NCBI GenBank assembly: GCA_035285325.1
Contig: JAYKJB010000116.1
Span: 1-33,788, forward strand
DNA: 33,788 nucleotides
Reading direction: 5' to 3'
Origin: Candidatus Sericytochromatia bacterium
GTDB lineage: Bacteria; Cyanobacteriota; Sericytochromatia; S15B-MN24; JAQBPE01
Shown here: positions 1-33,730 of the stretch, one piece after another
How positions within the stretch are numbered: the first letter of the stretch is position 1
Layout of the letters: the number at the start of each line of letters is the position of its first letter
Position numbers and translations under genes: made by a program
Notes under the pieces: generated by a model
The model's input: the letters and a program-made list of their open reading frames with translations, nothing else
Told to the model about the DNA's origin: nothing
Databases searched by the model: none

Positions 1-2553
1 ATCAGCAACAACGGGGGGGGCGTGCTGGCCAACAACGGGAGTCGCTTTCGTGCCTTCCCGGATGAAGGTTGGCCCACGCCAGGCCTGTCCTTCCACCTCC
101 AGCAAACCGCCCCGCTGGGGGTCTACGGTCTGACGGAGGCCCGCATCACCCTCCACGACGCCGCCGGACAGCAACTCGTCGACGAAACGGGCCGGCCATT
201 GACGGCCACCAGCGGGCCCGACGGCCGCTACACCCTCTCGGCCGTCCTGCCACCCGGCAACCTCGTCGCCCGCATCCCACTCTGGAACGGGGGCATCCTG
301 CAAGCGCTCGTCACGCCAGCCGGACGCGGGCAGGTCACGCTGGACATCAACACCGCCTCCACCATGAGCGCGGCATACGTCCTGACCAGGTTCGTGGGAG
401 GCCAGCAGGCCATCCTCGACAAGCTGCCGGCCAGCGAAAATGAGCGTCTAACCCGAGAATTCGAGGCCGTGCGGGGCTATGTCAAGGCTGCCTTTCAGCA
501 TGATGACGGCCTGCTCAACGAGGCCACCGACGTGCTCAGAGCCCGCGTGGCCGGCGTCGACCGGGTGCTCGAAGACGTCAAGGCCTTGCTGCTCGGCCAA
601 GCCGCGCTGGGCCGCGGGCTCAAGGCCACGGAGGTGCCCCTGGCTGGCCCGGTCCACCTGTACTGGCTGCGCGAGGGCCGTCTGGCCCTCGGCGAGGAAT
701 TGCTTGGCCGCATCCGCACGCTCGAACCCGACAGCACGCTCGCCATGCTGCTGGACAAGACCTACGGCCGCATCAAGAACAACGCCCCCACGCTGAGCAG
801 CATGGTGGAAGGCCCTGACGGCGCCCTGTATGTCGCGGCGCTCAAGGCTCATCGGGTCTATCGCGTTCCCCGCGCGGGTGAGATCCAGGTCTGGCTCGGC
901 AGCGGGCAACCGGGCCGGGATGCCCCGGGTGACCCGCTGGCCATGGCCTGTACCCCTCGCTGCCTGGCGTGGGATCCCGACGGCACCCTGTGGGTGGGGG
1001 AAGATAGCCGCAATAAACTCACGCCGGCCCGACTGCTGGCGCTGCGGCCGGACCGCCGGGTGGAGGCGTATGCGCTGCCGGCCGGTGCGGCCGGTGACTT
1101 GCTGAGCCTGGCCGTGATGCCAGGGCCCCGGGTGTACGTGCTGGTGCAGGCAAAGAGTGATCCGGGACAGCTGTGGCTGTTCCGGGACGGCCAATTCGAG
1201 AAGGTCGCATCCGATCTCGCCACGGGTCCCCGCAGTGGCCTCTGCGTGGGCCCGGACCAGACGCTCTACCTCAGCGAATACCATCGTCGACGCCTCCTGC
1301 GGCTGAATGCCGGGAGCCTGGAGACCGCCGTTGAATTCAAAACCGGGCCCCAACTGCCAGGCCCACTCGTCGCTGGGCCTGATGGCACGCTGTACGTCAG
1401 CGATCTGAGCGACAACGTCGTCTGGGCTGGCAAACCAGGGGCCGCCTGGCAGCCGTTGGCCGGTTCTCAGGCCGTGTTTCAACAGGGCGAGACGCAGGCC
1501 TTTGCGATCAACAACCCCAGCGGCGTGACGGCGGACGAACAGGGCCGCATCTATCTCTCCGAAACAGGCGGCAATCGCATCAAGCGCTTCGACGGTCGCG
1601 ACCTGAGCGTGGTGGTGGGCGGCGAACCCGCTCAGGACAGCAACCTGGGTGACGGCGGCCCAGCAGCCGCGGCTCGCCTGAGCAAACCCGCCGGCATCAC
1701 CTGGCACCAGGGAGCGCTGTACCTGATGGACCAGGGACATCGCCGGTTACGCCGGATAGAAAGCGACGGCACGATCCAGACCGTGCTCTCCTCTCCCAAC
1801 CTGGCCGACGCCTGGTCGCTCACCTTCGATGCGGCCGGGAAGCCGTGCTGGCCCCGTCCCACCCGTGGCGTGATCCTGCGGGCGAACGACGGCGGCGCCG
1901 TCGAGACGCTGGCCGGCATCGAAATGGAGAAATGGCTCGGCGCCAAGCTCGCCGGCGTCCTCGCCGGCAACTTCAGCGAAAACCCTGGCCAGCTCACGCT
2001 GGGACTTCCGATGGCTGTGGCGCGCAGCCCCGGCGGTGAGCTGTACTTTTCAGACGGCATCGGCTGTCGCATCTACAAGCTGGTGGGCCCCCCCGGGGGG
2101 CCGCACCGCGTGGAACTGTTCGCCGGTATCTCGCTGGCCAAGGCCTTGGCCCGCACCCGCGAGGGCAAATTGGGCGATCTGGCGGCCGAGGAGGGCGGGC
2201 CGGCCAAGGCCGCGATCCTCTCCGTGCCGATGGGCCTGGCCTTCGACCGGCAGGGCAACCTGTACGTCACGGAAGGGGGCGACCGCAACCTGGAGGCGAT
2301 GGCCCCCCTGTTCGGCAACGAACTGCCGATCGACCCTGCCTCGCTGCCGGGAGGTCCCCCGCGGGTACGCAAGATCACCCCCGCAGGTCTCATCACCACC
2401 GTGGCTGGTCCGGGAGGACGCTTCTTTCCGACCCAGGAGGGCGAGGAGGCCCTGTACATCCCCTGCGGCATCACCGTCACGCCGGATGGCCGCCTGGTCT
2501 TCACCGACATCGGCAGCAATCTGGTGCGCATCCTGCCGGCGGGCTCGTTCTGA
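1..2553 (+). CDS. NHL-repeat beta-propeller protein, 5'-truncated by window edge
   Basis: The frame is open from base 1, whose first codons read ISNNGGG, the same Asn/Gly octapeptide seen in the downstream paralogue, so the true start and probable lipoprotein signal lie off the window; the GTG at 22 is not the start. After the repeat remnant comes a carboxypeptidase-regulatory-like beta-sandwich (about bases 115-290, with a GPDGRYTLSAVLPPGN motif), then a helical region, then NHL/SMP-30-like propeller blades from about base 780 to the end (for example GVTADEQGRIYLSETGGNRI and GITVTPDGRLVFTDIGSN). Such propellers are usually secreted or surface-exposed and bind protein or carbohydrate; no catalytic site is evident. 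It is followed after 36 bp by a close paralogue, and the two end with nearly the same codons. The family call is firm; function is unknown. Confidence 0.85.
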   Translation: MSNNGGGVLANNGSRFRAFPDEGWPTPGLSFHLQQTAPLGVYGLTEARITLHDAAGQQLVDETGRPLTATSGPDGRYTLSAVLPPGNLVARIPLWNGGILQALVTPAGRGQVTLDINTASTMSAAYVLTRFVGGQQAILDKLPASENERLTREFEAVRGYVKAAFQHDDGLLNEATDVLRARVAGVDRVLEDVKALLLGQAALGRGLKATEVPLAGPVHLYWLREGRLALGEELLGRIRTLEPDSTLAMLLDKTYGRIKNNAPTLSSMVEGPDGALYVAALKAHRVYRVPRAGEIQVWLGSGQPGRDAPGDPLAMACTPRCLAWDPDGTLWVGEDSRNKLTPARLLALRPDRRVEAYALPAGAAGDLLSLAVMPGPRVYVLVQAKSDPGQLWLFRDGQFEKVASDLATGPRSGLCVGPDQTLYLSEYHRRRLLRLNAGSLETAVEFKTGPQLPGPLVAGPDGTLYVSDLSDNVVWAGKPGAAWQPLAGSQAVFQQGETQAFAINNPSGVTADEQGRIYLSETGGNRIKRFDGRDLSVVVGGEPAQDSNLGDGGPAAAARLSKPAGITWHQGALYLMDQGHRRLRRIESDGTIQTVLSSPNLADAWSLTFDAAGKPCWPRPTRGVILRANDGGAVETLAGIEMEKWLGAKLAGVLAGNFSENPGQLTLGLPMAVARSPGGELYFSDGIGCRIYKLVGPPGGPHRVELFAGISLAKALARTREGKLGDLAAEEGGPAKAAILSVPMGLAFDRQGNLYVTEGGDRNLEAMAPLFGNELPIDPASLPGGPPRVRKITPAGLITTVAGPGGRFFPTQEGEEALYIPCGITVTPDGRLVFTDIGSNLVRILPAGSF

Positions 2554-2578
2554 AACGGGCAAAAAATCGACTCGGGTA

Positions 2579-2584
2579 TATGAT
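2579..2584 (+). promoter_or_regulatory. Possible -10 element, start-proximal (weak)
   Basis: TATGAT lies six bases before the ATG at 2590 in an A/T-rich patch of an otherwise GC-rich gap. No -35 match is found at 17 bp spacing. If it is used, transcription would start at or next to the ATG and the mRNA would be leaderless, which would fit the absence of a visible ribosome binding site. Read-through from the upstream paralogue is an equally good explanation. Confidence 0.2.
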
Positions 2585-2589
2585 TGAAT

Positions 2590-5439
2590 ATGCGTCGCTT
2601 CGTATCGCTCGTCCTCAGCCTGATGCTGATGGCCGCGTGTCAAAGCCCCTCCTCGACCAGCAACCTGGCAGGCCGCAATCCCGTCAAGTCCGCCGGGGCC
2701 CCGCCCAAGGCGAGGGCCTCGGCGACCCCGGCAGGCGTGACAGCCCCCCGCTCGCGCGTCGTGCCGCAACAGGGCCAGGCCATCCAGCTGGCTGGCCTGG
2801 TGCGCCTGATCGCCCAACCCGGCGCCACCCTCATTAGCAACAACGGCGGCTCCCTGATCAGCGACCAGGGGGGCAGCCTGCTGAGTGACCAGGGCGGCAG
2901 CCTGATCAGCAACAACGGGGGAAACCTGGTCAGCAACAATGGCGGCGGCATGCTCGGGAAAACCAAGTTTTACGGGCTGCGCCAGGCCGCTCCCCTGGGG
3001 GTCTACGGTCTGACCGATGCCCGGATCACCCTGCATGACGCCAGCGAGCAACCGCTCGTCGATGAGAACGGCAAGCCGCTGACCGCTACCACGGGCCCCG
3101 ACGGCCGTTACACCCTCTCGGCCGTCCTGCCGCCCGGCAACCTGATCGCCCGCATTCAACTGTGGAACGGGGGCGTTCTGCGAGCGCTCGTCACGCCAGC
3201 CGGACGCGGGCAGGTCACGCTGGACATCAACACGGCCTCGTCCATGGGCGCGGCCTACGTGTTGAAAAAATTCGTGGGGGGGCAACAGGCCGTCCTCGAC
3301 AAGTTGCCTGCCAGCGAAAACGAGCGCCTGACGCGCGAGTTCGACGCCGTGCGGGGTTACGTCAAGGCCGCCTTCAAGCACGACGACAATCTGCTGAATG
3401 AGGCCACCGACGTGCTCAGAACCCGCGTGGCCGGGGTCGACAGGGTGATTGAGGACGTCAAGGCCCTGCTGCTCGGCCAGGCCGGCCTCGGCCGCGGCCT
3501 CAAGGCCATCGAGGTTCCGCTGGCCGGGCCGGTTCATCTCACCTGGCTGCGGGAGGGACGTCTGGCCTTCGGTGAGGAACTGCTCGGTCGCATCCGCACG
3601 CTCAAGGGCGACGGCACGCTCGAGGTGGTGCTCGACAAGACCCACGGCCGCATCAAGAACAATGCCCCCACGCTGACCAGCCTGGTAGAATCGTCGGACG
3701 GCAGCCTGTTCGCCGTGGCAGCCAAAGCCCAGCGGGTTTATCGCTTCTCGCTTGATGGCGAGATCCAGCCGTGGCTCGGAAGCGGCCTGCCGGGCCGAGA
3801 TGCTCCGCGTGACCCGCTCACCATGGCCTGCACCCCCCGCAGCTTGGCCGTCGGTTCCGATGGCACCCTGTGGGTGGGCGAACAGGACGGCGCCGGATTG
3901 AGCCAGCTCAGGCCCCGCCTGCTGGCCCTGCGACCGGACCGCCGGGTGGAGGCCTACCCCCTGCCGCAGACCAGCAGCGGGGATGTTGCCAGCTTGGTGG
4001 TGGCGTCAGGCCCTGAGGTTGACCTGCTGTTGACCCGACGTGAAGAACCCGGCAGCCTGTGGCGGTTCCGGGATGGTGCCTTCACGGAAGTGGCGTCAAA
4101 GCTTGCCACGCATCGAGACAGCGGTCTTTGCAGGGCAGCCGACGGCACGATTTACCTCAGTGAAACGGGCCAACGCCGCCTGCTGCGCCTCACCGCCACC
4201 GGCGCACTGGAAGAGGCCGTGCGCTTCCAGCGCGGCCCCCGCCTGCCAGGGCCGCTCACCGCCGGTCCCGACGGCATGGTGTACGTCAGCGATCTGAGCA
4301 CCCACGTCGTCTGGGCCGGGAAACCCGGCGGCGATTGGCAGCCGGTCGCAGGCACCGCGGCCGTCTTCCAGCGTGGCGAAACCCAGGCCTTCGCCATCAA
4401 CAGCCCCATGGCGGTCACGGCCGATGACCAGAGTCGCATTTACATCGCCGAAACGGGCGGCAACAGCATCAAGCGCTTCGACGGCAAGGAACTCACGGTC
4501 ATCGTGGGTGGCGACCCCACCAGCGCAGCCGACCGCGGGATGGGGGGGCCCGCTCAGCTGGCACGCCTGAAAGGCCCGCAAGGATTGGCCTGGCATCGCG
4601 GCGCGCTCTTCATTGCCGACGAAGGACACCAGCACTTGCTGCGGGTCGGCAGCGATCTCACGATTCAGACCCTGCTAAGCGGAGGAGAGCTGGACGGGGC
4701 CACGGCCATGGCGTTCGACGCCACGGGCCGCCTGTGCTGGCCGCGCGCCATGCGCGGCACGATCACACGCTTTGACCTCCAGCAACCAATCGAGACCATT
4801 GCCGGCGTCAGTCAATCAGGCGCCATGGGCGCCAAGCTGGCGGGCGTTCTGGGAACGCCCGCCAGCGATCCGAGCCAGCTGTTCATGGCGCTTCCCATGG
4901 GGGTGGCCTTGAGTCCGCGCGGTGAGCTTCATTTCACCGATAGCATTGGCTGCCGCATTTACAAGTTGAAGGGCGAATCCGGTCAGGCCCCAACGGTCGA
5001 AGTGGTGGCCGGCATCGGGCTGGCGGCCAGCCTGAAACGCCTGGAGGAAACGCCCGGCGCCCCGCCGCCGGTGCAGGAGGGCATCCAGGCGCTGGACTGC
5101 GCGCTCTCGATCCCCGTGGGGCTGGCTTTCGATGCGAAAGGCAACCTCTATGTGACGGAGGGGGGCGACCGCAACATTGAAGCGATGGCGCCGCTGGCCG
5201 GTCGCGAGCTTCCGATCGACCCGGCCCTGCTGCCCGGACGCCCGCCGCGCGTGCGCAAGATCACGCCCGAGGGCGTCGTGACCACCGTGGCAGGTCCCGG
5301 AGGCAAGTTTTTTCAGGATGCCGAAGGCGAAGATGCGCTGTTCGTTCCCTTCGGCATCACGGTCACGCCGGATGGCCGCCTGGTGTTCACCGACATCGGC
5401 AGCAACCTGGTGCGCATCCTGCCGGCGGGCTCGTTCTGA
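2590..5439 (+). CDS. NHL-repeat lipoprotein with Asn/Gly octapeptide repeats
   Basis: A 949-residue protein of unknown function. The ATG at 2590 gives a short signal peptide (MRRF, then a hydrophobic core) ending in a MAAC lipobox with Cys17, so it is probably a lipid-anchored envelope protein. A TTG two codons upstream (2584) is possible. Residues about 18-79 are a low-complexity linker, 80-119 are five octapeptides of SLISNNGG or SLISDQGG type, about 138-197 form a carboxypeptidase-regulatory-like domain, and about 356-949 carry NHL/SMP-30-like blades. The blade region is long enough for one large or two stacked propellers. No Shine-Dalgarno sequence is visible before 2590. It is the complete paralogue of the preceding truncated gene. 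The domain calls rest on motif recognition; ligand and role are unknown. Confidence 0.85.
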   Translation: MRRFVSLVLSLMLMAACQSPSSTSNLAGRNPVKSAGAPPKARASATPAGVTAPRSRVVPQQGQAIQLAGLVRLIAQPGATLISNNGGSLISDQGGSLLSDQGGSLISNNGGNLVSNNGGGMLGKTKFYGLRQAAPLGVYGLTDARITLHDASEQPLVDENGKPLTATTGPDGRYTLSAVLPPGNLIARIQLWNGGVLRALVTPAGRGQVTLDINTASSMGAAYVLKKFVGGQQAVLDKLPASENERLTREFDAVRGYVKAAFKHDDNLLNEATDVLRTRVAGVDRVIEDVKALLLGQAGLGRGLKAIEVPLAGPVHLTWLREGRLAFGEELLGRIRTLKGDGTLEVVLDKTHGRIKNNAPTLTSLVESSDGSLFAVAAKAQRVYRFSLDGEIQPWLGSGLPGRDAPRDPLTMACTPRSLAVGSDGTLWVGEQDGAGLSQLRPRLLALRPDRRVEAYPLPQTSSGDVASLVVASGPEVDLLLTRREEPGSLWRFRDGAFTEVASKLATHRDSGLCRAADGTIYLSETGQRRLLRLTATGALEEAVRFQRGPRLPGPLTAGPDGMVYVSDLSTHVVWAGKPGGDWQPVAGTAAVFQRGETQAFAINSPMAVTADDQSRIYIAETGGNSIKRFDGKELTVIVGGDPTSAADRGMGGPAQLARLKGPQGLAWHRGALFIADEGHQHLLRVGSDLTIQTLLSGGELDGATAMAFDATGRLCWPRAMRGTITRFDLQQPIETIAGVSQSGAMGAKLAGVLGTPASDPSQLFMALPMGVALSPRGELHFTDSIGCRIYKLKGESGQAPTVEVVAGIGLAASLKRLEETPGAPPPVQEGIQALDCALSIPVGLAFDAKGNLYVTEGGDRNIEAMAPLAGRELPIDPALLPGRPPRVRKITPEGVVTTVAGPGGKFFQDAEGEDALFVPFGITVTPDGRLVFTDIGSNLVRILPAGSF
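2827..2946 (+). repeat. Five tandem 24-bp units encoding octapeptides
   Basis: Five consecutive in-frame 24-bp units (2827-2850, 2851-2874, 2875-2898, 2899-2922, 2923-2946) encode TLISNNGG, SLISDQGG, SLLSDQGG, SLISNNGG and NLVSNNGG. A degenerate sixth unit begins GMLG. The pattern alternates hydrophobic Leu-Ile with Asn/Asp-rich turns. Remnants of the same repeat open the upstream paralogue at bases 1-40. Codon use differs between units, so this is not a very recent slippage product. Confidence 0.9.
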
Positions 5440-29252: not shown

Positions 29253-29732
29253 CTAGGAAGTCGGCCGAACCGTGGGGTATTTCAGGTCTTTCCAAGCTCC
29301 CATGCCGCCCTTCAGCACGAGCAGCTTGGTGTAACCCTGTTGGATGAGATCCAGCGCCGCACCGGCGCTGCTATGCTCGTCCGGTCACGTACAGTAGAGC
29401 AGCAGCGTGCGGTCCTTCGGCAGTTGGGCCTTGCCTTCCTTGATGTCGGCCCACGTCGCATTGACTGCCCCTTCGATGTGCTCAGCGGCGTAGGAGGCGG
29501 CATTGCGCACGTCCACCACCAGGATATTCTCGCCGGCGTTCAGGCGTGCCTTGGCCTGCTCTGGCGTGACGCGCCCTGGAGCGGTCACGGCCGGCCCGGT
29601 CCCTGGCTGCACCGAGGCAGAGGAGACGGGCGCAGGGTTTCCGGCCACTGGAAGCGAGGCCTGACAGCCCAGCAGACCCAGAAAACCAAGTCCTGCGGCC
29701 CAGGACAGGACGAGACGGTGACGACGCGACAT
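29253..29732 (-). CDS. Candidate selenocysteine-containing rhodanese lipoprotein (in-frame TGA at 29385-29387)
   Basis: Predicted sulfur- or selenium-transfer domain anchored in the envelope. The ATG at 29732 has GAGGAG 6 nt upstream and gives a signal peptide ending LLGC (Cys23, lipobox), a Ser/Pro/Val-rich spacer, then a rhodanese domain: VTPEQAKARL, ILVVDVRNAASYAAEHIEGA, LLLYCT. There a TGA interrupts the frame. The same frame continues PDEHSSAGAALDLIQQGY, LLVLKGGMGAWK and ends at TAG 29253-29255, completing the domain. Many exported rhodaneses read YCxCPxE in this loop, so the TGA sits at the second Cys, giving Cys114-Thr-Sec116-Pro. A SECIS-like hairpin follows. With Sec the product is 159 residues; without readthrough it stops at 115 and loses the last third of the domain. 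A point mutation or base error is the main alternative. Confidence 0.6.
29344..29384 (-). promoter_or_regulatory. Candidate bacterial SECIS element
   Basis: Read on the minus strand, immediately after the TGA come 14 nt, then CAGCGCC paired perfectly with GGCGCTG (29364-29370 with 29352-29358) around the loop GGTGC. A lower helix GACGAG/CTCATC with one mismatch extends it across an internal loop. Bacterial SECIS elements have an apical loop with G in its first two positions about 16-37 nt after the UGA; here the loop begins with G, 21 nt after the TGA. GC-rich coding sequence forms such stems by chance fairly often, so this is supporting rather than decisive evidence. Confidence 0.45.
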
Positions 29733-29758
29733 GGACATCTCCTCAGAGCAAAACCGGC

Positions 29759-31252
29759 TCAAAGTGTACCCTGTTTGGGGCCCGGCTCGCCAGGTGCGGT
29801 GCGCTCGCGCGCGAACCACGAGGGAGCCAGCCAGCCCCCCAGCGTGAGCACCGGGCCGTATGAAGCTTCCGCATAGCCGGGCCCCCCCAGGGACCAGCGC
29901 CGGTAGCCGATCGCCACCCTCAGTCCCGCGAAATTCCAATCCAGACCGCCCTCCAGGCGGGAACCGGTCAAGGGCGCAGGCTCCATCACCGCACCGGCGT
30001 CTGCCACGAACCAGGCGGGCGCCAGAGCCCCTTCAGCGTAGAGGCCCACGCCGCCGGACAGCGGCCAGGCCGCCAGCAGCAGGCACTCCGGCGCCACCAT
30101 GACACGGGTGCCCTGACTGACGGCCCCCCCCTGCACGGGCGTGACCGCCCGCCAGAACTGGTCCTGTTTGAGCGCCAGGCCGAGCCCCGCGTGCAGGTCA
30201 AGGCCCGCCACGCGGGCCCCGCGCAAGCCAGCGGCGTGCAGTCGCCATCCCTGGCGAGCCTGAAGACCATCCGCAATTTGCGGGTCGACGAAGGCGACAC
30301 CGCCCGCGTAGGCATCGAGCAGCCCGGTCCACCAGGCCGGCGACTCGCCAGGGACCTCCCAGGCGCCCCAACGCGCGAACAGGCGCGCGCCCGACACGCC
30401 GTGAGAGTCCGAGCGAGCCGCCTGCGTGAAACCCGGCACCGTCGCCTCGAAGGCGCCGAGCATGCCAGCGCTCGCCACGTGGAGGTCAAACGTGGGGGGG
30501 GAGCTCCAAGGTGCCGGCCCCGCGGGAAACGGCGCCATCGAGGGAGCCGGCAACGGCACGGGGGGAATCGGTGCGCGCTCGTCAGGCGTGCCCGGAAGAT
30601 AGGCGAGACCAGGTTCAGAGGGCAGAGGCAGGGGCTTCTTGTGCGTATCGAGTCCTTCAAGCACCCCCTGCAGCTGGCGTTCCAACACGGGCGAGGCCAC
30701 CGCATCCCCCCGTGGAGGAGACGGAGAAGCGAGGCGCGCGGGCAGCACCGGGGAAACGCGCCGGAGCGAAGCGGGCTCCGAGCGCGGGGCCACCTCCCTT
30801 TGTCCCGGCAATGGGCGGAGCGGGAGGCCCGATACCTGGGGCACGCGTGGCGGAGGAAGTAGCGGTGGCGCAGGCAGCGCGCTGCAGTCGAAGCGGATCA
30901 GGTGCTGACGCGCATCGAAGCGCAGGGCCACCTCCGTCGGCTTGCGCAACACCAGCGTGAGTCTCGCCCGCGTCTCACCGTGAGAGGCAAAGGTCCAGGC
31001 CAGGAGCTGGGGATGACTCGCAACCGAGGAATGGCGCGTGCCCGTCGACAGGCTGCGCGCCCGAATGTCGAAATAGACCCGATCCGGCTGACGCAGGACG
31101 CCCTCCGTCCAGATCGGGAGGGGGCCCGTGTAAGGAAGGACGACCTCCTGACGTCTGGCATCGTAGTAGGGCGCCCCGAGACGCGTCGCAGACGCAGGGG
31201 CGGCGTGCAACGCCGGGGCGGCGAGCAAGGTCAGAGACGCCATCAGAACCAC
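29759..31252 (-). CDS. AMIN-domain protein with Pro-rich linker and outer-membrane-barrel-like C-terminus
   Basis: A 497-residue exported protein. The N-terminus is a Sec-type signal with AxA cleavage (LLAAPALHAAPA) but no positive n-region at either possible start, GTG 31252 or ATG 31243. Residues about 40-125 resemble an AMIN domain (RVYFDIRARSLSTG, ARLTLVLRKPTEVALRFD), a module that binds peptidoglycan in pilus secretins (PilQ) and amidases. Residues about 126-255 are Pro/Arg-rich. The rest has alternating aromatic and glycine-rich strands (GVGLYAEGALAPAWFV, GGLDWNFAGLRVAIGYRRW) like a small outer-membrane barrel. There is no secretin or amidase domain. The rhodanese gene follows after 26 bp and the ABC permease gene ends 60 bp upstream, so co-transcription is likely. 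Function is unknown. Confidence 0.65.
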   Translation of the reverse strand: MVLMASLTLLAAPALHAAPASATRLGAPYYDARRQEVVLPYTGPLPIWTEGVLRQPDRVYFDIRARSLSTGTRHSSVASHPQLLAWTFASHGETRARLTLVLRKPTEVALRFDARQHLIRFDCSALPAPPLLPPPRVPQVSGLPLRPLPGQREVAPRSEPASLRRVSPVLPARLASPSPPRGDAVASPVLERQLQGVLEGLDTHKKPLPLPSEPGLAYLPGTPDERAPIPPVPLPAPSMAPFPAGPAPWSSPPTFDLHVASAGMLGAFEATVPGFTQAARSDSHGVSGARLFARWGAWEVPGESPAWWTGLLDAYAGGVAFVDPQIADGLQARQGWRLHAAGLRGARVAGLDLHAGLGLALKQDQFWRAVTPVQGGAVSQGTRVMVAPECLLLAAWPLSGGVGLYAEGALAPAWFVADAGAVMEPAPLTGSRLEGGLDWNFAGLRVAIGYRRWSLGGPGYAEASYGPVLTLGGWLAPSWFARERTAPGEPGPKQGTL

Positions 31253-31312
31253 AACGGGCCCCCACGTGCCAGGGCCTGTCGAACGTCGTTCCAGGTCCGA
31301 CCGGGCTTCAGC

Positions 31313-32209
31313 TCAAGCATTCGGCAGCTCCTGGGATGGCGCTGCGGCAGGCCAGGCACGCAGCCAGGCCAGCAGCCGGCCCAATCCGCGCACGGCCAGG
31401 GCGGCGAGCACGAAGGCCGCGGCCAGGGCCGTTTGACTGGCTCCCACCGGAAATTCGCCCACGTAGGCCAGCAGATAGCCCCCCGCCCCGGCCGCGGCGC
31501 CCAGGCTCGCCGCCAGGGCCAGCGCCAGCCAGGGAATGCGACACAGGGCCATCACGGCCAAAGCCGGCAGCACGCTGAAGGCAAATACCGGCAAGGCCCC
31601 CAACGCATGGGTCGCCACCGAGATGCAGCCGGCCAGCAAGAGCAACAGCACCGTATCGAGCAGGGCCACCGGCAGGCCTCGCACACGCGCCCCATCGGGA
31701 TCCATCGAGGCGAACCAGAAGCCCCGATGCCACCAGAGCAGCCAGAAGGCACTGAGGCCGGCCACCCCCGTCACCAGGGCGACATCTTCGGGCCTGACCA
31801 CCACGGCCGAGCCGAAGAGGATCGCCTCGATGTCGTGGGCTTCCTGGCTGATGCGCGTGCCCAGCAGCAAGGCCACGGCCCCCCCCAGCATATAAAGCAA
31901 GGCCAGCACCCCTTCCCGGCTGATGACCCGGCGTCCCGGCCACTGCAGGATCCAGATGGCCAGCAAGGTGGCGCCCAGGGACCAGGCCCGGGGAGAGGCC
32001 AGGCTCTCGGGAAGCCCGGCATGAATCTGCAGAAAAAAGGCCGTCGCCACGCCGCAGCCAGCCGCCTGCGCCAGCGCGGCCGCCGAAAAGACCATGCGAC
32101 GCATCACCACGAACACGCCGAGGTAACCCAGCACGGCCCCGGCGATCGCCGCCACCAGGATCGGGTCGCGGAACAGCTCCCAGGCTGAAAAGAGGGCACC
32201 CAAAGCCAT
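31313..32209 (-). CDS. ABC-3 family metal transporter permease (ZnuB/MntB type)
   Basis: Membrane subunit of a zinc/manganese/iron-type ABC importer. The 298-residue protein has about eight hydrophobic segments and the family features VVMRRMVFSAAALAQAAGCGVA (corresponding to the RRLSFLGDALSHA region of ZnuB) and EAHDIEAILFGSAVVVRPEDV (the LFGDILAVS region). It starts at ATG 32209, 4 bp after the ATPase stop. The substrate cannot be read from the sequence. The His of the usual DALSHA is replaced by Gln, so metal specificity may differ from that of ZnuB. Confidence 0.85.
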   Translation of the reverse strand: MALGALFSAWELFRDPILVAAIAGAVLGYLGVFVVMRRMVFSAAALAQAAGCGVATAFFLQIHAGLPESLASPRAWSLGATLLAIWILQWPGRRVISREGVLALLYMLGGAVALLLGTRISQEAHDIEAILFGSAVVVRPEDVALVTGVAGLSAFWLLWWHRGFWFASMDPDGARVRGLPVALLDTVLLLLLAGCISVATHALGALPVFAFSVLPALAVMALCRIPWLALALAASLGAAAGAGGYLLAYVGEFPVGASQTALAAAFVLAALAVRGLGRLLAWLRAWPAAAPSQELPNA

Positions 32210-32213
32210 CCGC

Positions 32214-32987
32214 TCAGGCCCAGCTTCCCACAGCAGGATCCCCCTCCGGGAGCGGGTCGTCCCAGGACAGGCGTCCGAACTGACTCACAAAGACAGGGTG
32301 CTGCAGCAAGTCTCGGGGAGCGGTCATCACGGCCGTCTGGCTGTCAGCATCGACGAAACACACGCGATCCGCTCGCCTCAGCCCATCATGCAGGCGATGG
32401 GTCACCCACACCACCGCCATCCCTCGCGCTTCGCGCTCCCGGTCAATCACCCGCAACGCCTCGCGCTCCGCCACCACATCCATCCCAGCGGTGGGTTCGT
32501 CAAGCACCACGAGGTCTGGTTGACCCACCAGCGCCTGAGCGAGCAAGACGCGCTGTTGCTGGCCCACCGACAGCGACCCGAAGCGCTCATTCGCCAGCTC
32601 CTCGCAGCCTGCCAGCGTGAGCACCCGCTCAACCGCCTGACGCCCGCCCGGAGCGCGCAGGGGACGCAGGAAGGACCAACCTTCATCCGCTCCCATCGCG
32701 ACCACATCGCGGGCCCGCATCGGCAGGGTCGGATCGACCAGGTGCCGCTGCGGCATGAACGCCACGTGCATGCTCGGTTCCCGCAGCACCCGACCGGAAA
32801 CTGGGGGCAGCAGGCCCAGCAGCGTCTTCAGGAGGGATGACTTGCCGGCCCCGTTGCGTCCCAGCACGACCCAGGCCTGGCCCGCCAGCACGCTCGCACT
32901 GAGCGGAGGCAGCAGCGCCCGCCCGCGGTGGCCGACCACCATCTCACGCGCTTCGATCACGCAAGCGCCCTCCGACAATGATTTCAC
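32214..32987 (-). CDS. ABC transporter ATPase (ZnuC/MntA type)
   Basis: Nucleotide-binding subunit paired with the ABC-3 permease. The 257-residue protein has Walker A GRNGAGKSS, a Q-loop MPQRHLVDP, signature LSVGQQQRV, Walker B and D-loop LVVLDEPTAGMD, and the switch His in VTHRLHDG. GTG 32987 overlaps the stop of the upstream lipoprotein (GTGA) with AGGAGG close upstream. All catalytic residues are present. The C-terminal 35 residues after VMTAPRDLL match the usual end of metal-type ATPases. Confidence 0.9.
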   Translation of the reverse strand: MKSLSEGACVIEAREMVVGHRGRALLPPLSASVLAGQAWVVLGRNGAGKSSLLKTLLGLLPPVSGRVLREPSMHVAFMPQRHLVDPTLPMRARDVVAMGADEGWSFLRPLRAPGGRQAVERVLTLAGCEELANERFGSLSVGQQQRVLLAQALVGQPDLVVLDEPTAGMDVVAEREALRVIDREREARGMAVVWVTHRLHDGLRRADRVCFVDADSQTAVMTAPRDLLQHPVFVSQFGRLSWDDPLPEGDPAVGSWA

Positions 32988-33730
32988 CGCGCCTCCTGGC
33001 TGCGATCGATCACCAGTCCGACGGTCGACTGTGCGGAGGGACCAAAGTGCAGCATCACCTCACCGGGCATCATCTCCACGAAGTGGTGGATGGCGATGTC
33101 GCGGCAGCCTTCCGGCTGCTTGCTGGAAGACTCCAGGGCCAGCGGTTGGCCATCGAGGAACAGCGCGAAGGGCACGTCCTGGTTCAGGTAGAAGCTGTAC
33201 ACCGCCACCCGCAGGTTATCGAAGCGCACCATGCCTTCACGCTGGTCTCCTTCCCCCACCAGCTGGATGTCATAGCGATGCCCATCGTCCCCGACCGTGT
33301 CCATGGTTCCCTCGCCCGGTAGGATGGCCCGCACCTGCTTGACCGGCCCGGTCGACATCAGGCGGCAGCCCAGGGCCACATCGCTGGTGTGGGGCAAACT
33401 AGGAAAGGGAGACGGTTCTGGCACTTCGGGGAGGATCGGGATGTCCGAGACCCGGGGAGTGGTGGTGGCCGACGCCTCGACCAGCGGGGTCGCGGCGGAC
33501 GGCAGCACATCAGGGCTGGCAGCCGTGGCGTCCGGAAGCAAGGCGGAAGGATCGGTGCTCAGGCCGCCCGATGAGGCGGTGAATGTCGTCGGGGGAGCCA
33601 GCGCGATGGTCGGAATCCGCGACACGCTGGTGGTGGGGGCTGGCGCACTGCAAGCCGCCAGCGCCAGCATCGCCAGAACCACCAGCCGAGCCAGGGCTGA
33701 CTGCGGGCCGTTTCTTTCACTCAAGCGCAC
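32984..33730 (-). CDS. Lipoprotein coupled to the metal-type ABC transporter
   Basis: A 248-residue protein of unknown family. GTG 33730 begins a signal peptide with LALAAC (Cys27, lipobox). Residues 28-115 are a Ser/Thr/Pro/Ala-rich spacer. The folded part (about 116-248) is beta-rich and contains two Cys (ALGCRL and PEGCRD) that could form a disulfide, plus IAIHHFVEMMPGEVMLHFG. It does not resemble ZnuA/TroA solute-binding proteins, which are larger and helical-hinged. The 4-nt overlap with the ATPase start indicates translational coupling, so it may be an accessory or unconventional binding component. No strong ribosome binding site precedes the GTG, so the start is uncertain. Confidence 0.7.
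   Translation of the reverse strand: MRLSERNGPQSALARLVVLAMLALAACSAPAPTTSVSRIPTIALAPPTTFTASSGGLSTDPSALLPDATAASPDVLPSAATPLVEASATTTPRVSDIPILPEVPEPSPFPSLPHTSDVALGCRLMSTGPVKQVRAILPGEGTMDTVGDDGHRYDIQLVGEGDQREGMVRFDNLRVAVYSFYLNQDVPFALFLDGQPLALESSSKQPEGCRDIAIHHFVEMMPGEVMLHFGPSAQSTVGLVIDRSQEAR

Follow-up and report, generated by a model that had tools for sequence, protein, structure and literature searches.

A predicted lipid-anchored rhodanese selenoprotein and a complete selenocysteine-decoding machinery in a Candidatus Sericytochromatia genome

Contig JAYKJB010000116.1 of a Candidatus Sericytochromatia bacterium, analysed over positions 1 to 33,788 (hereafter, the window), carries a rhodanese gene with a TGA codon within its active-site loop. 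This raises the question of whether that codon terminates the protein, is an error of the assembly or is decoded as selenocysteine (Sec) and, in the last case, what kind of enzyme would be produced. The reading that we favour, with a probability of roughly 0.88, is that the gene encodes a single-domain, lipid-anchored rhodanese in which UGA codon 116 is decoded as Sec, and in which Cys114 and Sec116 would act as a redox or sulfane-sulfur reductase pair.

The whole reading frame lies on the minus strand (29253..29732) and encodes 159 amino acids, with the predicted Sec at position 116. Between its start and the TAG at 29253-29255 there is a single internal stop, the TGA of codon 116 (29385..29387), and direct reading of the sequence shows a Shine-Dalgarno-like GAGGAGA (29738..29744, minus strand) 5 nt ahead of the ATG. 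The N-terminus reads MSRRHRLVLSWAAGLGFLGLLGC; its residues 20-23 (LLGC) match a PROSITE PS00013-type lipobox pattern within a putative signal peptide (29664..29732, minus strand), and the protein is predicted to be lipid-anchored through Cys23. Further along the frame, LLLYCT is followed by the TGA, by PDEHSSAGAALDLIQQGYTKLLVLKGGMGAWKDLKYPTVRPTS and by the TAG. The active-site loop is LYCT-U-PDEHSSAG, with the motif C114-T-U116-P recognised from the sequence itself and from alignment. The rhodanese domain spans about residues 54-155 (29268..29573, minus strand) according to PF00581, NF041203, AlphaFold2 and Foldseek. In the readthrough translation, PF00581 covers residues 56-149, on both sides of the TGA (E=4.9e-16; 59.5 bits, with a gathering threshold of 22.2), which confirms the claim of a previous sequence-only reading that one in-frame TGA stands in an otherwise intact rhodanese frame ending at a TAG.

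The codon composition after the TGA resembles that before it, and shifts past the TAG: GC content at the three codon positions is 0.71/0.54/0.75 before the TGA, 0.65/0.47/0.74 after it and 0.67/0.81/0.58 past the TAG. As TGA terminates 19 of the 23 other window genes that were checked, the genome must use the standard code, with TGA as a normal stop, and the earlier statement that code reassignment is excluded holds. The same usage is what favours the view that codon 116 is a true stop and that the gene is either a pseudogene or the source of a product that breaks off after 115 residues, without the second half of its rhodanese domain. The comparisons that follow bear on this view.

For instance, all the genes for Sec decoding that the sequence-only reading proposed to look for are present in the host genome (G000; 98.6% complete). 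The tRNA-Sec scored 71.6 bits and was also called by ARAGORN, as tRNA-SeC(tca); selA (552 bits) is at C5:74682-76031, and selB (370.7 bits in all, above the TIGR00475 cut-off) is directly downstream, at C5:76067-77914. The fourth gene, selD (381 bits; C23:39504-40430, L083), has its own in-frame TGA, in TAG*ASK, and is predicted to encode a selenoprotein itself, a Sec-containing selenophosphate synthetase. Thus, selA, selB, selC and selD, whose joint presence was taken as a criterion for a selenoprotein, are all encoded in G000. An in-frame TGA in selD was also observed in G004, G005, G007, G008, G009 and G010, although selA was not found in one of these genomes (G009, 64% complete). The alpha subunit of Sec formate dehydrogenase is the commonest bacterial selenoprotein. 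This enzyme was dropped as a reason for the retention of the Sec trait, as no Fdh-alpha match was found in G000 at E<=1e-60; none with a TGA was found among the 18 genomes of the class.

In a sample of 292 Cyanobacteriota genomes, selA was detected in seven, all of them from the class of the window. Cyanobacteria have been described in reviews as lacking Sec decoding (PMC1794560; PMC9312934), and our literature search found no paper combining "Sericytochromatia" and "selenocysteine". The Sec-decoding trait, complete and seemingly in use, is thus present in a class of a phylum that has been described as Sec-less.

The TGA is shared among relatives. Eighteen genomes of the class were compared, seven with selA above the cut-off and 11 without, and a TGA was found at the column of codon 116 in eight rhodanese genes from six genomes, all six selA-positive (the window gene, G000:C25, G001:C374, G005:C63, G007:C382, G008:C21, G010:C494 and G010:C471). 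TGA rhodaneses are consequently present in 6/7 selA-positive and 0/11 selA-negative genomes (Fisher p about 4e-4, calculated by hand); G004, the remaining Sec-decoding relative, has no TGA rhodanese. When the homologues from the selA-negative G003 and G006 are aligned, a Cys occupies this column, in agreement with the expectation that the Cys of CxC relatives should align at the TGA site. The position of the TGA is not due to chance, as seven other rhodanese genes share the exact alignment column. Additionally, the pN/pS ratio between the congeners G005 and G008 is 0.15 before the TGA and 0.19 after it, and this similarity indicates that purifying selection acts on the part beyond the TGA much as it does on the part ahead of it.

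Outside the class, CxU rhodaneses were found in an uncultured Acidobacteria bin (L085), a Blastocatellia bacterium (L087) and a Pyrinomonadaceae bacterium (L088). All three have the TGA in the same column and, at the corresponding position, a sequence able to fold into a hairpin, although in L085 this hairpin is not the minimum-energy fold of its 48 nt, and lipoprotein-like starts were recognised in L085, L087 and the first L088 copy. In total, the UGA is conserved in eight genes of the class and four of Acidobacteriota, where the criterion adopted was conservation in at least two independent sequences. The best family tree has five Sec/Cys changes; repeated gain may explain them, and a single origin of Sec is also compatible with the sequences. 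Viral contigs yielded no relatives.

Additional copies or forms were also observed. G000 itself carries a second CxU rhodanese (C25:19020-19454; L038:3024-3485, minus strand), lipoprotein-like, with the loop LYCA-U-PDEHSSAG and its own SECIS-like hairpin, and in Pyrinomonadaceae two adjoining CxU copies, each with a TGA and a hairpin, are found at L088:2562-3297. In G010, a Sec copy without the first rhodanese half (G010:C471:2171-2332, L043) keeps the lipoprotein-like start, the TGA and the hairpin, and a full-length Cys copy on another contig (G010:C360, L044) adjoins a similar beta-propeller-like gene. A Thermomicrobiales rhodanese (L162:2239-2562) has a TGA at a different position of the loop (YCWDAQ*DMSA), with a strong hairpin after it, and is possibly another form of rhodanese selenoprotein.

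The hairpin after the UGA provides further evidence. In the window gene, the bacterial SECIS-like element CAGCGCC-GGTGC-GGCGCTG (29352..29370, minus strand) places its apical loop 22-23 nt past the UGA. According to published rules for bacterial SECIS elements, the loop should have 3-9 nt, the stem 4-16 bp, a G should be within the first two positions of the loop, the element should lie 16-37 nt past the UGA and its MFE should be <= -7.5 (PMC13188914). The window hairpin, with the loop GUG at +23, a stem of 8 bp and -17.7 kcal/mol, satisfies them all. When the 48 nt past the UGA were folded, a hairpin was found in all eight TGA genes, with an apical loop (GUG, GUA, CGUGC, CGUGA or CGUGU) that starts at +22 or +23. 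The rules are satisfied at this position by 8/8 TGA genes but by 0/7 Cys homologues; six of the latter have no hairpin there, and in the seventh (G006:C58) the hairpin is weak and discontinuous and fails the rules. Three Cys homologues satisfy the rules only through unrelated hairpins elsewhere.

A single hairpin is weak evidence, because codon-shuffled sequences often satisfy these loose rules (17 of 60 for the window sequence; between 3 and 47 of 60 across sequences). The strong part of this evidence is the shared position and the covariation of the stem. The covariation score observed in 12 sequences, including the four from Acidobacteriota, was reached by none of 500 shuffles; one stem pair changes from CG to UA in five of the 12, and 82% of the cells are paired in the hairpin alignment versus 29-48% for slid structures. 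A covariance model search of G000 returned as its top two sites both rhodanese genes that had been used to build the model. A third match (E=0.01) was rejected, as no TGA precedes it, and Rfam gave no match within the window at gathering thresholds.

These observations weigh against reading codon 116 as a true stop, which we consider very improbable: the TGA stands in the same column of eight related genes, the frame past it is intact, conserved and under purifying selection, a hairpin follows at a common position and the genome has a complete Sec machinery. It could also be argued that a Cys codon, TGC or TGT, was misread as TGA during sequencing or assembly, as the host genome is a 138-contig assembly. 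However, other assemblies, among them JAQBPE010000244.1 (RYN_339) and those of three Acidobacteriota genomes, show the identical TGA, which is always accompanied by a hairpin that is absent from the Cys homologues, so that an error of this kind is hardly credible. These sequence comparisons leave practically no room for a pseudogene, a sequencing error or code reassignment. The idea of a Cys-Thr-Sec-Pro active site in a lipid-anchored rhodanese, already put forward by the sequence-only reading, is supported by the Sec machinery, the hairpin, the CxC relatives that align at the site and the same-column TGA; the related genomes that it suggested to examine do have this TGA, in independent cases and with a SECIS-like hairpin after it. 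The product is a well-supported selenoprotein candidate of a kind for which gene-finding programs end the frame prematurely, at the UGA.

If the codon is decoded as Sec, what would the enzyme do? AlphaFold2 predicts the rhodanese domain, from residue 51 onward, with a pLDDT of about 97, and the best Foldseek matches are rhodanese structures with E of about 1e-9 (3nhv, E=1.4e-9). Cys114 (TGT, 29391..29393, minus strand) comes directly after the strand formed by residues 109-113 (DSSP) and, in the MAFFT alignment, falls in the column that holds the catalytic Cys in ordinary rhodaneses. Two residues past it, Sec116 provides an additional chalcogen, in a loop that exceeds the canonical length by two residues; consequently, the chemistry of this loop is not readable from known rhodaneses. 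An ungapped sequence alignment to 6mxv sets Sec116, instead of Cys114, against the catalytic Cys, but the strand boundary in the model and the multiple alignment favour Cys114 as the probable equivalent of that residue.

On these grounds, a mechanism can be proposed. During translation, the SECIS hairpin that closely follows the UGA would recruit SelB carrying Sec-tRNA(Sec), which SelA and SelD would produce on the selC tRNA. The protein would then be exported, lipidated at Cys23 and held outside the cytoplasm. As Cys114 is in the catalytic column and Sec116 is two residues on, the former, the ordinary rhodanese nucleophile, would accept and carry the sulfane sulfur as a persulfide, and the latter would resolve this persulfide through a selenenylsulfide (S-Se) bond. 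The role of the enzyme might thus be that of a redox or sulfane-sulfur reductase, instead of or besides that of a thiosulfate:cyanide transferase. With Sec beside the nucleophilic Cys of a lipoprotein that is predicted to be exported, sulfane sulfur would be expected to undergo extracytoplasmic S-Se redox chemistry, and this prediction is directly testable because natural CxC versions occur in sister genomes.

It has to be considered, nevertheless, that UGA may encode Sec in an ordinary exported thiosulfate or sulfane sulfurtransferase of the PspE type, in which Sec would merely tune the loop. The rhodanese fold and a Cys114 at the nucleophile position would suit such an enzyme, and thiosulfate is converted by the periplasmic PspE (PMC10215317). 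In thiosulfate sulfurtransferases, the canonical active loop ends in Arg, Thr or Ser. We dropped the argument that the loop of the window protein is without the loop-end residue needed for thiosulfate, as Ser121 takes that place in the alignment and Ser is found at the loop end in 2/13 structured rhodaneses (PMC8533005). However, Ser121 varies among the relatives, with Leu in its place in G005/G008; conservation extends to the CxC/CxU pair and to the longer, mostly acidic loop, which sets them apart from PspE/GlpE-type loops, and Sec sits at the second, non-rhodanese Cys, which would be superfluous to a plain sulfurtransferase. We therefore regard this alternative as unlikely, while giving it some weight.

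A further possible role for Sec116 is the handling of metals or of selenium/tellurium in place of sulfur redox. Upstream of the rhodanese gene there are four closely spaced genes on the same strand (window 29759-33730, minus strand), encoding a small lipoprotein, an ABC ATPase, an ABC-3 permease and a 497-aa protein without an assigned role, in a possible operon. A location downstream of an ABC-3 family permease and an ATPase, which are of a metal type, would match such a role. By contrast, the homologues have different neighbours, and this explanation seems improbable; in general, the neighbours of the window gene and of its homologues gave no functional lead. At the other end of the window (1-5439), two adjoining long paralogues of 850 and 951 aa were observed, the second with an ISNNGG/LSDQGG repeat near a lipoprotein-like start.

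Returning to the Cys114/Sec116 reductase that we prefer, a broader proposal may be made tentatively, at less than even odds. The lipid-anchored CxU rhodaneses of this Cyanobacteriota class (probably non-photosynthetic Sericytochromatia) and of Acidobacteriota could constitute a distinct extracytoplasmic selenoenzyme subfamily that reduces sulfane sulfur by means of an intramolecular Cys-Sec selenenylsulfide. In G000, where no Sec formate dehydrogenase was found, these rhodaneses and SelD could jointly help to maintain Sec coding.

Among known systems, the closest is NF041203, "rhodanese-related (seleno)protein", the best of 11 NCBIfam families (E=2.6e-25). The window protein shares with this "LYCAU" family a single rhodanese domain, LYCxU, a Sec two residues past the rhodanese Cys and the existence of Cys homologues, but stays below its curated cut-off (88.5 vs 115 bits), which no protein of the class reaches. 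CxU rhodaneses have been catalogued as "form 3, NF041203, CxU" and credited to Zhang and Gladyshev 2005 in a 2026 review (PMC13188914), and are given as "form 2, CxU" in PMC9312934. Thus, the earlier proposal of a candidate new selenoprotein stands as to the selenoprotein, while its novelty is limited to that of a member. Forms 1, 2 and 4 and TsoB (NF045694) also combine a rhodanese domain with Sec (PMC13188914), but the motifs of these forms are UxxS/UxxG, and TsoB has UxxxxU in a DsbD fusion-like protein, whereas the Sec of the window protein is at the last position of CxU. The single-domain thiosulfate sulfurtransferases PspE and GlpE have in common with it the fold and the nucleophilic Cys and, in the case of PspE, export; their active loop, however, is shorter and without a second Cys or Sec, and the window protein scores only 51 bits against the GlpE model and 27 bits against the PspE model, both far below the cut-off. 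Sulfane-sulfur reduction is known from rhodanese-domain persulfide reductases that are also fold matches (3nt6, an NADH-dependent persulfide reductase, and 3icr, CoADR-RHD), but their redox partner is a fused flavoprotein, while the resolving group proposed here is Sec116, in the same loop. By sequence, the window protein is a divergent, putatively lipid-anchored member of the known CxU rhodaneses and does not represent a new selenoprotein family; what is new is the presence of a CxU rhodanese and a full Sec machinery in a relative of cyanobacteria, within a phylum reviewed as Sec-less.
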